Shown piece after piece: positions 56,405-63,898 of a DNA stretch of 64,000 bases. Below the pieces are notes generated by a model. That model was given only the letters and a program-made list of their open reading frames with translations. It ran no database searches and was not told where the DNA came from. The number at the start of each line of letters is the position of its first letter. The stretch's first letter is position 1. A program made the position numbers and the translations under genes. The stretch is from Deltaproteobacteria bacterium (GTDB taxonomy: Bacteria > Myxococcota_A > Polyangia > Polyangiales > JADJMO01), in contig JANYDK010000140.1 in the NCBI GenBank assembly GCA_025363655.1, positions 1 through 64,000 on the forward strand, in the 5' to 3' direction.

Positions 56405-57496
56405 ATGCTCTCCGCCCGCGCGCTCGATCCGCTCCTGCCGCTGGCGAACGCGCTCGATCCGTGGCTCGATCCGCTGGCGGTGCGGCTCGGTCGCGCGCTC
56501 TTCTCGCGTCTGCAAGAGCCGCCTCTGCGCGCGGCCTCGACCCCGGCTCGCAATCGCGCGCTCGAAGAGGTCAGCGCCACCTACGTGCCGCGCATCGCCT
56601 CGCTGTTGCCAGGTCTTCGTGCACGCGACGTCGCGACGATGGCCCACTACGACGCGATGGTCGCCGAGGCGATCGTCGAGCTGCGCGGCGTGGCCGGAGC
56701 GCGAGCCGCAAAACGTCGCGTCGAACGCGTCGCGCACGCGCTCGATCGAGTCCTCCAACGTGATCGCCCAGAGTGGCTCGACGACCCGAGCTTCGACATG
56801 GCGCTCCGGGTACGCACGCTCGATCGGCTCGATCTCCTCAACACGGTGATCGGCAGCTACGACTCCTTCGCCACGGTGCTCGAGCCGGCGGTCGAACGTG
56901 CGCGCGCGGCCGGTGTGAAGAGGCCGGTGGTGGTCGATCTCGCGAGCGGGCACGCCGGCTTCGCGCTCTTGATGGCGGAGCGGCTCGGCGCCCGTGAAGG
57001 TCGCGTCCGCGTCGTCGCCACCGACTTGGTGACCGAGTACCTCGACCTCGGTCGCGAGAAGGCGCGCGCGCTCGGCCTCGGCGAAGACGCCGTCTCCTTC
57101 GTCGCCCAAGACGCGCTCGATCTCGACGACTTGCCCGAAAAAATAGGCGCTCCCGTCGACGTCATCTGCTGCACGCAGTCGGTGCACCACTTCTCGCCAG
57201 GCATGGTCGCGCGCCTCCTCGGAGAGGCCTCCGCGCATGCCCGTCATGGGGTCGTCTTCGTCGATGGAGAGCGCGACCCACTCGCCTTCGCGATGGTCGT
57301 CCTCTTCGGCGCGGCCCTCAGCCGTTTCGGTGCGCCCTTCGTGCACGACTCGCTGGTCTCGATTCGGCGCATGTTCACCGAACAAGAGCTGCACCTGATC
57401 GCGCGGCTGGCTCCATCACGTGATTCCCGCGATGGCGCCGGCGTCCCCGTGCGCGCCGGATGGCTACGCCCGGGGCATGTGTTCGTCGCGACTTGA
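56405..57496 (+). CDS. Class I SAM-dependent methyltransferase
   Basis: 363 residues. The first 165 residues are helical and unfamiliar (VLQRDRPEWLDDPSFDMALR). The methyltransferase core begins at about 177 with VVVDLASGHAGFALLMAERLG, then VVATDLVTEYLDLGREKA, VSFVAQDALDLDD and VICCTQSVHHFSPGMVARLL. The last residues resemble a membrane-proximal helix. The substrate is unknown. It lies 10 bases after tatA and so may be co-transcribed with lgt-tatA. Convergent with the ion channel gene, 3 bases apart. Confidence 0.83.
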   Translation: MLSARALDPLLPLANALDPWLDPLAVRLGRALFSRLQEPPLRAASTPARNRALEEVSATYVPRIASLLPGLRARDVATMAHYDAMVAEAIVELRGVAGARAAKRRVERVAHALDRVLQRDRPEWLDDPSFDMALRVRTLDRLDLLNTVIGSYDSFATVLEPAVERARAAGVKRPVVVDLASGHAGFALLMAERLGAREGRVRVVATDLVTEYLDLGREKARALGLGEDAVSFVAQDALDLDDLPEKIGAPVDVICCTQSVHHFSPGMVARLLGEASAHARHGVVFVDGERDPLAFAMVVLFGAALSRFGAPFVHDSLVSIRRMFTEQELHLIARLAPSRDSRDGAGVPVRAGWLRPGHVFVAT

Positions 57497-57499
57497 TTC

Positions 57500-58612
57500 T
57501 TACTTGATGAGAACGGCGAGCCCGGAGATCAAGAAGTAGAGCGGCGGGAGGATGCGCCAGGCGAGCCGATCGAAGCTTTTGCTCCGCTCTTCCTGGCCGT
57601 TCTCGAACATCGCCAGCGACCACGTCGACTGCACGAGCGAGATGAAGATGAAGCCGAAGGCGACGATGTGGAGCTTGTCGGCGAGGGCGATGACGTTGGT
57701 GTCGGGGAGTGCGCCCGAGACGATGTACTCGCTCGCGACGGCGGCGAAGATCGCTCCGACGCCGAGTCCGAAGCGAGGATCGACATCGGTCGGCTTGATG
57801 AAGAAGGCGAGGAAGCCAATCAACGCGGCGACGACGAGCCCGAAGAAGAGCTTGAGGAAATACGAGGCGCCGTGGCGCTCGAGGTTGATCGTGAAGCGGA
57901 AGCTCGAGTAGCGCGACTCGTTGTCGCTCGGCAGCGAGATGTCGCCGTAGTTGCTGTGCTTCTTCGAGACTTCGACGATCGCCGTGCTCTTGCCCATCGT
58001 CCAACCCGGCACGCGCACGTCGTCGTCGAGCCCGCAGCTCGGCCCGTCAGCGACGTATTTGAGCTTGAAATCTTCGCTCTCCGAGTCCTCGATGACGATC
58101 GGCACCGGGTGATCGTCGAGCGGATACCGCGACACGTCCCAGAAGTTGGTGATGTCGGCGACCACGCGAAGAACCGCGTAGTTCTGCCCTTTCACCACCG
58201 AAATCTCAGGCTCTCCCTTGTTCGCGATCTGCCCATTGGCGATCTCGAACGACGCATAGGGCTTCACGTCCGGATGCGTCCAGCGAAACCAAATCCAGAA
58301 GTCGACGCTGAACTTGTTGTCCTTGAGGCTGAAGGCGGTGATTTGGTTGATGTAGATGCCGACGGCGACCTCAGCGGGAGGCCCTTTCCAGATTTTTTCG
58401 GCGGGAGGATTCGTCGCGTTGGGATCGGCGTTCGCGTTCGCGTTCGCGTTCGCACTCGCACTCGCACTCGCGCCCGCGTTCGCACTCGCGTTTCCATTTG
58501 GATCGACCTGCGCGCCGCTCTTTCGCGGAATCGCCCACGACAAGACCATCGCCAGGCAACCCAGCACGAGCCACATCCAACGCCTGTTCCTGCCCGATCG
58601 TCCCATCGTCAT
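57500..58612 (-). CDS. Pentameric ligand-gated ion channel homologue
   Basis: 370 residues from the ATG at 58612 with GGAGG 6 bases upstream. A signal (LVLGCLAMVLSWAIPRKSGA) and an Ala/Asn/Ser low-complexity stretch (41-67) lead to an extracellular beta domain: VAVGIYINQITAFSLKD (83-99), FSVDFWIWFRW (101-111) and FWDVSRYPLDDHPVPIVI (157-174). The last matches the Cys-loop position, without the two Cys, as in prokaryotic GLIC/ELIC. Four membrane helices follow (251-272, 281-301, 309-330, 350-369); YSSFRFTINLERHGAS precedes M1 and SGALPDTNVIALADK links M2 and M3. M2 (FGLGVGAIFAAVASEYIVSG) is mostly apolar with Phe near 9'. Ligand unknown. Confidence 0.82.
   Translation of the reverse strand: MTMGRSGRNRRWMWLVLGCLAMVLSWAIPRKSGAQVDPNGNASANAGASASASANANANANADPNATNPPAEKIWKGPPAEVAVGIYINQITAFSLKDNKFSVDFWIWFRWTHPDVKPYASFEIANGQIANKGEPEISVVKGQNYAVLRVVADITNFWDVSRYPLDDHPVPIVIEDSESEDFKLKYVADGPSCGLDDDVRVPGWTMGKSTAIVEVSKKHSNYGDISLPSDNESRYSSFRFTINLERHGASYFLKLFFGLVVAALIGFLAFFIKPTDVDPRFGLGVGAIFAAVASEYIVSGALPDTNVIALADKLHIVAFGFIFISLVQSTWSLAMFENGQEERSKSFDRLAWRILPPLYFLISGLAVLIK
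58432..58492 (-). repeat. Hexamer tract (Ala-Asn/Ala-Ser codons)
   Basis: TTCGCG and CTCGCA units encoding the (Ala-Asn)n/(Ala-Ser)n stretch before the ligand-binding domain of the ion channel homologue. Confidence 0.75.
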
Positions 58613-58786
58613 CGATCCTCCAAGCGGCAGACTAACTCCATACGGGCGCATTCCGGGGCGGCTTTGCCTTCATTCGGGTGCGTGGTAGACACCGCCCCCC
58701 CCTGCGGACGGGCTTCGCCGCCGCAGCTGTCACGAATGCGTGGGTGAACCCACGCAAACCCGAACTCGCGCAACTTGGAGGTCCGG

Positions 58787-59281
58787 ATGTCCAGCCCCGC
58801 TCAGCTCGTGAAGACCCGCTTCGGTGACAAGTCGAAGCTCCTCGACGCCCTCAAGCCCTTCCTCGGCGAAGACCTCTGGGTCGGTCGCACCAACGACGAC
58901 AAGGGGATCGCCCGCATCTCCAACGCGAAGCTCGTCCGCCTCTTCGACACCTTCACCACCGTGAAGTCGAAGTGGGGCACGCGCGCCAAGCTCATCGACG
59001 CCGTCGTCGAAGCCTCGGGTAAGCAGAAGGACCCGGGCTTCCGCACCCGCATCGAGGGCTGGCCCGTCCCGCGCCTCTACGACTCGTACAAGGCTGCCGC
59101 CAAGCGCGCGGCGCCGAAGGCCGAAAAGAAGGCCGAGAAGAGGGCCGAGAAGCCGGCTGCCAAGGCTGCCGAAGCGAAGGCCGACAAGGGCGCGGCGAAG
59201 AAGCCGGCCGCGAAGAAGTCCGAGGCGCCCAAGGCTGCCGCGAAGAAGCCCGCCCCGAAGAAGTCGGCCGGGAAGAAGTAG
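58787..59281 (+). CDS. Histone-H1-like basic protein
   Basis: 164 residues from the ATG at 58787 with GGAGG 6 bases upstream. A folded N-terminal domain of about 105 residues (QLVKTRFGDKSKLLDALKPFL, LVRLFDTFTTVKSKWGTRAKLIDAVV) is followed by about 60 residues of Lys/Ala/Pro repeats (KKAEKRAEKPAAKAAEAKA) typical of eukaryotic-type H1 tails and of bacterial Hc1/AlgP-like proteins. It would bind and compact DNA. The N-terminal domain is not one I can name. Monocistronic by spacing, and a long gap upstream (58613-58786) presumably holds its promoter. Confidence 0.75.
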   Translation: MSSPAQLVKTRFGDKSKLLDALKPFLGEDLWVGRTNDDKGIARISNAKLVRLFDTFTTVKSKWGTRAKLIDAVVEASGKQKDPGFRTRIEGWPVPRLYDSYKAAAKRAAPKAEKKAEKRAEKPAAKAAEAKADKGAAKKPAAKKSEAPKAAAKKPAPKKSAGKK

Positions 59282-59356: not shown

Positions 59357-59866
59357 ATGCGCGCCTTTCGTCTTTTTGTCGCCGCGCCGCTCGTCGTCGT
59401 CGCGCTCGGTTGCTCGTCGGAGGCTGCTCCGCCGCCGCGTCGTCCGCTTTCGGCCGACGTGGTGATGCCCGAGCCGGAGCCGCAGCCGAAGCAGGCCATC
59501 GCTCGCGCGGTCGTCGACAAGGCGATCAAGGCGGGGCTCGGTCACTTCCTCGCGTACGTCGACGTCGAGGCGCAGGTCGACAACGGCAAGTTCGTCGGCT
59601 GGAAGGTGATCGAGCTTCGCGGGCCCAAGGGCACGTGGGATGGCGTCGATCTGCGCGTCGGTGACGTCGTCGTTCGCGTCAACGGGTTCAAGGTCGAGCG
59701 CGACTACGAGGCCGACAAGGCCTTCAAGTCGCTCGCCGTCGCCAGCGAGATTCGCGTCACCCTCCTCCGTGAGGGGCAGCCGGCCGAGCTCCGTCTCGCC
59801 ATCGTCGCCGAGGGCGAGATGCCGCCCGACACCGCCGGCGTGATCAAAGAAGTGCCTGAAAAATAG
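59357..59866 (+). CDS. Lipoprotein with PDZ-like domain
   Basis: 169 residues. Lipobox VALGC after a short signal. The mature part from about 40 is one PDZ-like fold: AIARAVVDKAIKAGLGHFLAYVD, VGWKVIELRGPKG, VDLRVGDVVVRVNGFKVE and SEIRVTLLREGQPAELRLAIV. Similar to the PDZ or homology region of GspC-like proteins without its membrane part. It probably binds a peptide C-terminus in the periplasm or at the outer membrane. Partners are unknown. Confidence 0.78.
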   Translation: MRAFRLFVAAPLVVVALGCSSEAAPPPRRPLSADVVMPEPEPQPKQAIARAVVDKAIKAGLGHFLAYVDVEAQVDNGKFVGWKVIELRGPKGTWDGVDLRVGDVVVRVNGFKVERDYEADKAFKSLAVASEIRVTLLREGQPAELRLAIVAEGEMPPDTAGVIKEVPEK

Positions 59867-61690: not shown

Positions 61691-63727
61691 CTATTCGAAG
61701 TAGCTCTTCACCTGACGACGCAGCGCCTCGGGGATGTCGGCCTTGTCGACGCCGTTCACCTCGTCGGCCGGCGTGCCTTCGTCGCCCGAGCCTTTGACGG
61801 TGGTCTTCGAGCCATCGGTGCCGGTCGACTTTTCGATCGAGCCGCCGGGGTTCGGAGTGCCGGTGCCGCCGACGCCCTTGGCCTTGGCCTTCAACGTCGC
61901 CGCGTCGAGCTTCTTCGAGTGACCTTTGTGGTCGCCTTTGCCGCCGCCGGGGCCGGGACCGCCCATGCCGTCGCCGTCGCCCGTTCCACTGCCGTTGCCG
62001 TTGCCGTTCCCATTGCCGTTCCCGTTCCCGTTGCCATTCCCATTCCCGTTTCCGTTGCCATTCCCGTCGCCGTCTCCATCGCCATCTCCGTCACCGTCGC
62101 CGTCGCCCTTGCCATCACCTTTGCCGTCGCCGTCGCCTTTGCCGTCGCCCTTACCGTCTTTGCCCTTGCCGTCTTTGCCTTTGCCGTCTTTCCCGCCCTT
62201 GCCGTCCTTCCCGTCTTTGCCGTCGCCGTCTTTGCCGTCTTTGCCATCGCTCAGACCCTTGCCGGCGTCGTCGGCGCCGTCTTCGCCGTCGTCGAGGCCT
62301 TCCTGCTGCTTCTCTTCGTCGGACTGCCCGCCCGACGGGTCGCCGTTCGCGAGATCGCGCAGCTCGTCTTCGAGCTCTTTCTGACCTTCCGGCGTGCCCA
62401 GCTTCTTCGCCAGGTCTTCGAGCTTCTTCTTCGCCTGCGGCGACATCTTTCCCGTCGCGCCGCCCTTGCTCGCCTGCTCTTTCAAATTCTCGGCGAGCTT
62501 CTTCCGCTGCTCGGGCGTCAGCTTCTCGAGACCTTTGCGGAGCGCGTCGGCGAGCTCTTTGGCGGCGCCGTCGGTGCCCTTCGAGTCGAAGTTCTTCGAC
62601 TGCGTCCCCGGGTCGCCTGGCGTGCCCTTGAGCGCGTCGGCGAGCTCCTTGAGGACGTCGCTCTTGTCCTTGCGCGCCTCGAGTCGCTCCTTCTCCTTCT
62701 GGAGAATCTTCGCGATGTCGTCGGCGCCCTTCTTCTTCGCTTCTTCGATCGCCTTCTCCAGCGCGTCCTTCGCCTTCTGGCGATCTTCGTCTTCGCGCGC
62801 GTTGGCGATGCGCTCCATCATCTCGTCGAAAGCCTGCAAATCGCGGTCTTCCAGCGCGTCGGCGAGGCCGGGGAAGCCCTTCTCTTTGAGCGCGTCGGCG
62901 GCCGCGTCGAGGCCCGCTTTCTTCTCGCCGCCACCGAGCTCTTGCTTCTCGGCCTCGAGGCGCTGCTTCAGGCTCTTCAGCTTGTCGAGCGCTTCACGGC
63001 GCGGCATCCCCTCTTGCAGCTTCTTCTTCAGCTCGCGCGCGTCCTCGGCGATCTTCGCGAGACGATCTTTCTGCGCCTGATCTTTGGCGGGGAGCTTCTC
63101 GACCTGCGCGATCTTGTCGAGGCCAGGCACGGTGTCGAGCTTGACGACGTCGGTGCCGGTCGGCGGCGAGGCGTTGGCGCTCTTCGGCGGGCGCAGCGCG
63201 AACGCAGCGATGCAGGCGACGGTGCCGACGAGGGCGAGGGCATGCGTGCGACGCATGCGGCCAGGCGCGCGACGTGGTGTCCGGAGCGCGGTGATGGCGT
63301 CGTGCAACACTTCGCCGGGCGCGTCGCGGCCGCAGGTGATGGCGGTGGTGATCGACTCCTGCGTGCCGAGCACGCCGTCGACGTAGAGCGCGATGCGTTC
63401 GTCACTCCAGGCGCGACGCATGCCGCGGTAGGCACCGACGACCGCACCGACGCCGGCGATGGCCACGCCGCCCATGCGCCACGAGTGATGGTGCGTGAAG
63501 TACGAAGCGACGACGAACCCGACGCCGAGGGTGGCGCCGACCGTGAGGCCATCGAGCGCGGCGCGAAACACCATGTGCCCGTTGATCGACGAACGCCAAG
63601 GCGCGAACGCCTCCTCGAGCTCGCGCCGCTCCCCAGCTCCGGCGAGCGCAGAGGCGCCCTTCGTCTTGGGTTCGCTCGCCGTCTCACTCGTCTCGTTCGC
63701 GTCGTTGTCGCTGCTCTTGTCGGCCAT
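61691..63727 (-). CDS. DUF4175-like membrane protein with Gly/Asp/Asn/Lys tract
   Basis: 678 residues from the ATG at 63727 (MADKSSDND). Two to three N-terminal helices (about 50-105 and 155-172), then a long coiled coil rich in Lys/Glu (about 200-400), a Gly-rich tract of Gly with Lys, Asp or Asn (about 495-595) and a C-terminal IPEALRRQVKSYFE. That ending and the layout match DUF4175-type proteins encoded with MoxR/BatA-type genes. The Gly/Asn and Gly/Asp tracts are hexamer-encoded (61982-62260) and could change length. Role unknown. The 63728-63898 gap upstream shows no gene. Confidence 0.65.
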   Translation of the reverse strand: MADKSSDNDANETSETASEPKTKGASALAGAGERRELEEAFAPWRSSINGHMVFRAALDGLTVGATLGVGFVVASYFTHHHSWRMGGVAIAGVGAVVGAYRGMRRAWSDERIALYVDGVLGTQESITTAITCGRDAPGEVLHDAITALRTPRRAPGRMRRTHALALVGTVACIAAFALRPPKSANASPPTGTDVVKLDTVPGLDKIAQVEKLPAKDQAQKDRLAKIAEDARELKKKLQEGMPRREALDKLKSLKQRLEAEKQELGGGEKKAGLDAAADALKEKGFPGLADALEDRDLQAFDEMMERIANAREDEDRQKAKDALEKAIEEAKKKGADDIAKILQKEKERLEARKDKSDVLKELADALKGTPGDPGTQSKNFDSKGTDGAAKELADALRKGLEKLTPEQRKKLAENLKEQASKGGATGKMSPQAKKKLEDLAKKLGTPEGQKELEDELRDLANGDPSGGQSDEEKQQEGLDDGEDGADDAGKGLSDGKDGKDGDGKDGKDGKGGKDGKGKDGKGKDGKGDGKGDGDGKGDGKGDGDGDGDGDGDGDGNGNGNGNGNGNGNGNGNGNGNGNGSGTGDGDGMGGPGPGGGKGDHKGHSKKLDAATLKAKAKGVGGTGTPNPGGSIEKSTGTDGSKTTVKGSGDEGTPADEVNGVDKADIPEALRRQVKSYFE
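61982..62260 (-). repeat. Hexamer tract (Gly-Asn, Gly-Asp, Gly-Lys codons)
   Basis: Degenerate six-base units encoding the Gly-Asn, Gly-Asp and Gly-Lys dipeptide runs of the DUF4175-like protein; the largest low-complexity block in the window. Confidence 0.75.
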
Positions 63728-63898
63728 CGGGTCCTCGCGGTGGTGCACGCCGCCTTGGAGAAACGTAGCGTGCACCCTGGATACGGACGAGGCGGAGGGG
63801 GGATCTGTTCCAGGTTGGCGTCGGTCAATCGTCGTTCCAACGCCAAAAACGCATGAACCGTCGCATCAAATGCATAGTCATTCGATGTAAAAACGGCG

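Follow-up and report, generated by a model that had tools for sequence, protein, structure and literature searches.

A bacterial Pro-loop receptor subunit without the M1 proline, and a clade of relatives sharing its M2 pattern

A minus-strand open reading frame in a 64,000-nucleotide stretch of deltaproteobacterial DNA (the window) raises the question of whether it encodes a subunit of a pentameric ligand-gated ion channel (pLGIC), and what a pore helix with an apolar face would do in such a protein. An earlier note on this DNA had proposed a GLIC/ELIC-type subunit with four helices. The features of the gene and of its product, P0001, are listed below.

57500..58612, minus strand: pLGIC (Pro-loop receptor) subunit P0001, 370 aa (sequence search, profile, model)
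58617..58621, minus strand: Shine-Dalgarno-like GGAGG, 4 nt before the ATG (sequence)
58514..58612, minus strand: predicted signal peptide, about residues 1-33, hydrophobic at 11-31 (hydropathy; model helix 9-27; cleavage site inferred by eye)
58428..58492, minus strand: Ala/Asn/Ser linker, a diverged GCGTTC hexamer tandem repeat, disordered (repeat scan; pLDDT below 50 at residues 29-71)
57878..58393, minus strand: periplasmic ligand-binding beta-sandwich, residues 74-245 (alignment, model)
57800..57868, minus strand: M1 helix, residues 249-271, with Gly258 at 14', where most pLGICs have Pro (model, alignment)
57713..57778, minus strand: M2 pore helix, residues 279-300 (alignment, model)
57602..57685, minus strand: M3 helix, residues 310-337 (model)
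57506..57592, minus strand: M4 helix, residues 341-369 (model)

The gene, its surroundings and the fold of its product

The reading frame is real, as its coding composition (GC 0.85 at the third codon position against 0.55 and 0.43 at the first two), the Shine-Dalgarno-like sequence and the homologues agree. A longer frame extends to 58651, but the ATG at 58612 is preferred because of the GGAGG placed just before it. On one side a methyltransferase gene on the plus strand, convergent with the P0001 gene, ends at 57496, and on the other the upstream neighbour begins at 58775 in the opposite orientation. The gene therefore lies alone between opposed neighbours and is not part of an operon. A scan for sigma-70 promoters and terminators around it gave none above chance. 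The divergent neighbour (58775-59281, plus strand) has no Pfam match and ends in a long Lys/Ala/Pro-rich tail that resembles histone H1-like proteins. Also in the window are a gene for a small protein (59357-59866, plus strand), whose C-terminal PDZ-like domain is similar to the end of type II secretion GspC, and a 694-aa frame (61691-63775, minus strand) with long Lys/Asp/Gly and Asn/Gly hexamer-repeat stretches (repeats at 61966-62245).

Against Pfam, P0001 gave only a weak match to Neur_chan_LBD (E 0.0018), under the gathering score. NCBIfam returned LIC (E 9e-12) and LGIC_1 (E 3e-9), both under the curated cut-offs (44 bits vs 280 and 37 bits vs 500, respectively). Such genes are therefore easily missed by automatic annotation. 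In the PDB, the single sequence matched a GLIC-GlyR chimera at E 8e-10, and a family profile built from 19 relatives matched a GLIC-GlyR chimera at E 5e-22 over positions 71-361. Homologues reach 50% identity and are spread over several phyla, which together with the PDB matches places the frame far beyond chance.

Among the checks proposed in the earlier note was structure prediction, and it recovered the topology of a pentameric-channel subunit rather than a fold without it. With the alignment of the 19 relatives as input, AlphaFold2 produced a model of pLDDT 81, in which a beta-sandwich is followed by four long helices at the residues listed above, bearing out the helix count; only residues 1-7 and the linker fall below a pLDDT of 50. 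The M3-M4 loop of the model is a few residues long, and there is no cytoplasmic domain. Comparison by VIA-align gave Z of at least 8 for all 1000 chains aligned, and among the matches listed were GABAA (including beta3), GluCl, GLIC, GlyR and nAChR chains at Z 23.8-24.7. Superposition on these chains gave an rmsd of 2.2-2.8 Å over about 280 residues, and of 2.3-2.8 Å for GABAA beta3, GluCl and GLIC.

Motifs of the ectodomain include loop D (FWIWFRW, 105-111), the Pro loop (YPLDDH, 163-168), Trp204 of beta9 and loop C (SNYGD, 220-224), and the pre-M1 Arg246 follows directly after the beta-sandwich. PMC4795631 lists seven residues as the most conserved of the superfamily, and P0001 has six of them: Y163, P164, D166, W204 (the beta9 aromatic), R246 and P303 (the M2-M3 proline). 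The F/YPxD Pro loop, which holds the only absolutely conserved proline of the superfamily (PMC4795631), reads Y163-P164-L165-D166, and this proline is kept in 50 of 50 members of the clade described below that have the column filled. The mature protein contains a single cysteine (in PSCGL, outside the Pro loop) and so has no animal Cys-loop pair. By homology, fold and topology, P0001 is a member of the pLGIC, or Pro-loop receptor, superfamily; the PDB matches, the Pro loop and the fold all uphold the family first proposed. The Ala/Asn repeat that had been noted ahead of the ligand-binding domain corresponds to the diverged hexamer repeat.

M1 and M2 in P0001 and its relatives

Over 0' to 23', M2 of P0001 aligned to GLIC and GlyR with no gap, giving R0' (280), G2' (282), G6' (286), F9' (289), A13' (293) and P23' (303), with P-1', S14' and Y16' as further residues and Asp278 at -2', just before the helix. 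The lumen-facing set is thus D-2', G2', G6', F9', A13' and Y16'; in GLIC it is E-2', T2', S6', I9', A13' and I16', and in GlyR alpha1 G2', T6', L9' and T13'. The alignment confirms the earlier assignment of G2', G6', F9' and A13', and the pore face is apolar as described. The further claim that these residues are unlike known pores was found to hold in part. It fails for G2', which is found in GlyR alpha1, for A13', found in GLIC, and for F9', a minority residue present in 13% of a 561-sequence superfamily survey (PMC4795631); it stands for G6' and for the combination as a whole. On sequence comparison, therefore, G6' and the residue combination stand out in this pore, while G2' and A13' are ordinary. 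The earlier note did not include three features: the glycine in place of the M1 14' proline, the pattern at M1, 6' and 9' across a whole clade, and the acidic Asp278 at -2' (Glu in GLIC).

The M1 14' proline is conserved in 77% of the same survey (PMC4795631), has been described as present in all pLGICs (PMC4813548), and belongs to a bend at which P, G or S was reported (Tasneem 2004; PMC549065). Being common but not universal, it was not taken as defining for pLGIC membership. In GLIC, replacement of this residue (Pro203 in the paper's numbering) with Ala, Leu or Gly abolished the response, and P203L was silent though the protein was at the cell surface (PMC4813548). By analogy with these mutants, a pLGIC that has lost the proline could be a channel unable to open. 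DSSP assigned a single unbroken M1 helix to the AlphaFold2 models of both P0001 and one folded proline-containing relative used as a control, so that an M1 kink does not tell the two models apart.

Relatives were drawn from named genomes, from genomes in the order and phylum to which the window belongs, from sampled genomes of Planctomycetota, Acidobacteriota, Pseudomonadota and Bacteroidota, and from Azospirillum plasmids. The alignment holds 108 sequences, 52 without the M1 proline and 56 with it (56/56 by group definition); the search profile was seeded with proline-less proteins, and the residue frequencies are not census figures. Within the proline-less group the 14' residue of M1 is G in 29, S in 11, A in 6, I in 3 and T in 3 (n=52), 6' is Gly or Ala in 51/52 and 9' is Phe in 50/52. 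The corresponding counts for the proline-containing group are 6/56 and 2/56; there 6' is Thr in 40/56, 9' is Leu (35/56) or Ile, and 14' of M2 is Leu or Phe. At this last position GLIC has Phe and P0001 Ser, and the proline-less proteins mostly have Asn (32/52) or Ser (14/52). Moreover, 0' is Arg or Lys in all 52 proline-less sequences, and -2' is acidic in 33 and not acidic in 19.

In a maximum-likelihood tree, 49 of 50 proline-less rows fell in one group (support 99/95), which spans six phyla: Myxococcota, Planctomycetota, Acidobacteriota, Verrucomicrobiota, Bacteroidota and Pseudomonadota. The exceptions were the proline-bearing L018 inside this group and the long-branch, proline-less L043 outside it. 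Judged by its sequence, P0001 belongs to this clade, as it lacks the M1 proline, has 6' Gly and 9' Phe, and groups with the clade in the tree. With GLIC as outgroup the proline-less group holds together (SH-aLRT 93), and GLIC falls on the proline side, which suggests that the proline was lost rather than gained; the GLIC branch is long and the root insecure. In a tree of the extracellular domain only, which has weak support and long branches, the proline label takes 4 changes vs 2, a result that neither overturns the grouping nor firmly supports it independently of the transmembrane domain. Since the changes in M1 and M2 may go back to a single event, Fisher p-values for the residue differences between the groups do not count as independent evidence, and co-occurrence by itself does not demonstrate functional coupling.

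Several individual relatives deserve mention. L043 (G020:C445), in which 9' is Phe and 6' is Ala, sits among the proline group at the end of a very long branch and is either a misplaced row or an independent case of the proline-less pattern. At L112 (G943:C53:1282-3276), two proline-less pLGIC genes lie tail to tail with about 18 bp between the matches. At L013:3923-5075, a pLGIC frame passes after M3 in frame into biotin-protein ligase (BirA-like) sequence, without M4; a frameshift or an assembly error in this metagenome genome is the probable cause, a fusion being less likely. A sub-branch (L011, L014, L018, L020, L021 and L022) has no clear signal peptide and carries instead a hydrophobic N-terminal helix, possibly a fifth, retained transmembrane helix, followed by a conserved linker (roughly RHxxRM/F...EPG.T). 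The laboratory strain Azospirillum brasilense Sp7 has a clade member (L104, NZ_CP012915.1:1108506-1109369) beside a SIMPL (DUF541) gene, on a replicon recorded as plasmid ABSP7_p1.

The flanks of 17 relatives were compared all against all and no shared neighbour gene was found, so that no conserved operon partner offers a functional clue. Genes found near relatives encode an MMPL transporter, rRNA dimethylase, polyphosphate kinase, phosphoesterase, radical SAM protein, ECF sigma factor and SIMPL protein. A profile search of viral contigs and a tblastn search of phage records gave no homologue and therefore no sign of phage mobility.

How the membrane domain may work

We favour the reading that P0001 forms a homopentameric channel in which Phe9' is the gate and the M1 hinge is altered, at a probability of about 0.6; pentamer formation, ligand gating, conduction and selectivity are what we infer here. 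The signal peptide would export the ectodomain, and five subunits in the inner membrane would ring a central axis lined by M2. A putative periplasmic ligand would bind between ectodomains, in a pocket formed by the family-conserved loop C (Y-x-T/S-N-Y-G-D) and loop D (F-W-I-W-F-R-W). Both groups conserve the W.W of loop D, the Glu that follows the Pro loop (IVIED) and, in loop C, a Tyr and a Gly, so that the domain still appears to serve in binding; a nearly invariant loop C Tyr is His218 in P0001. Binding may be relayed to the M2-M3 loop through the contact of the Pro loop (YPLD) and Arg246. In the closed pore a ring of Phe9' (and Tyr16') would form the seal, and beneath it the small G2' and G6' rings would leave a wide, weakly polar lower pore down to Asp-2'. 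Because 14' of M1 is Gly, gating would not proceed through a GLIC-like Pro-induced M1 bulge, and the small, flexible residue, together with loosened Gly/Ala-rich packing of M2, presumably replaces it.

Asp-2', by analogy with Glu-2' of GLIC, suggests a weak cation preference. G2' and R0' are as in GlyR alpha1, and a Pro lies beside R0', as might be expected of a ligand-gated channel selective for anions, like the glycine receptor. In animal anion channels the order is Pro-Ala-Arg, with Pro at -2'. P0001, in contrast, has Asp-Pro-Arg with the acid at -2', where GLIC has Glu and the 33 clade members counted above have Asp or Glu, and anion selectivity is very unlikely.

The membrane domain might also have ceased to conduct. 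P0001 would then be a receptor that kept its ligand-binding domain and serves as a membrane sensor through a putative partner, with M2 packed through a Gly/Ala-rich face (G2', G4', G6', A7', A10', A11' and A13'). Such a loss would agree with a mid-pore face without polar residues, with the absence of a proline required in GLIC (PMC4813548), and with ectodomain motifs conserved while the transmembrane domain diverged. The mid-pore also lacks a hydroxylated ring (6' Thr/Ser to Gly), which counts against a channel. However, the lumen-facing 6' and 9' positions are strongly constrained within the clade, as fits a gate, and R0' and a frequent acidic -2' are retained. Moreover, there is neither a cytoplasmic domain nor a recurring neighbour that could serve as output partner, which argues against partner signalling and mildly for a channel. 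The homopentameric channel is therefore favoured, and a non-conducting receptor is judged unlikely.

The missing hinge could also be supplied by another subunit, in a heteromer of proline-less and proline-containing paralogues. The window's genome does encode a proline-containing paralogue, L002 (G000:C58:40839-41693), with a Glu/Lys-rich N-terminal linker, and in a family-level relative, L025 (G002:C910:3817-5864), genes of the two kinds stand in tandem on the same strand with 173 bp between the matches. Nevertheless, the P0001 and L002 genes are on different contigs, the proteins share just 26% identity, and six of eight genomes of other groups searched singly gave one match only, so that such a heteromer is a highly improbable explanation.

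With respect to the clade as a whole, we would put forward only tentatively that it is a bacteria-wide pLGIC branch in which a conserved binding domain is joined to a membrane domain that has a different hinge or is that of a non-conducting receptor. As a natural clade without the proline and with accompanying pore changes, it offers a direct way of asking whether gating needs the M1 kink or can be achieved by other means as well. Some of its members, in culturable or easily handled bacteria (Azospirillum brasilense Sp7, Niastella and Defluviimonas), give access to the long-standing question of the role of bacterial pLGICs.

Comparison with known systems

The superfamily is known, and the individual features of P0001 have already been seen at its level. 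The open-licence literature searched held no description of the proline-less clade, of the M1 and M2 co-occurrence or of a characterised member. A profile search of the PDB found no closely matching solved chain and none from the clade, the best being GLIC and GLIC chimeras.

GLIC resembles P0001 in fold (Z about 24 over 281 residues, at 20-21% identity), in the absence of a Cys loop, the short M3-M4 loop, the acidic -2', A13' and the LP at 22'-23'. From GLIC to P0001, Pro is replaced by Gly at M1 14', Thr by Gly at 2', Ser by Gly at 6', Ile by Phe at 9', Phe by Ser at 14' and Asn by Arg at 0'. P0001 further differs in its signal peptide followed by an Ala/Asn/Ser linker. GlyR alpha1 and GABAA share the fold, F/YPxD and the pre-M1 Arg, and GlyR alpha1 also G2' and R0'; unlike them, P0001 is without the Cys-loop pair, cytoplasmic domain, PAR motif, T6' and M1 proline. 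ELIC, DeCLIC and sTeLIC have superfamily and topology in common with P0001, which lacks the N-terminal Cache/PBP-like domain of DeCLIC. The proline-containing relatives (L023, L030, L059 and others) share with it W..W, F/YPxD, the Glu after the Pro loop and the loop C Y.T/S..G, but they keep the M1 proline and mostly have 6' Thr and 9' Leu.
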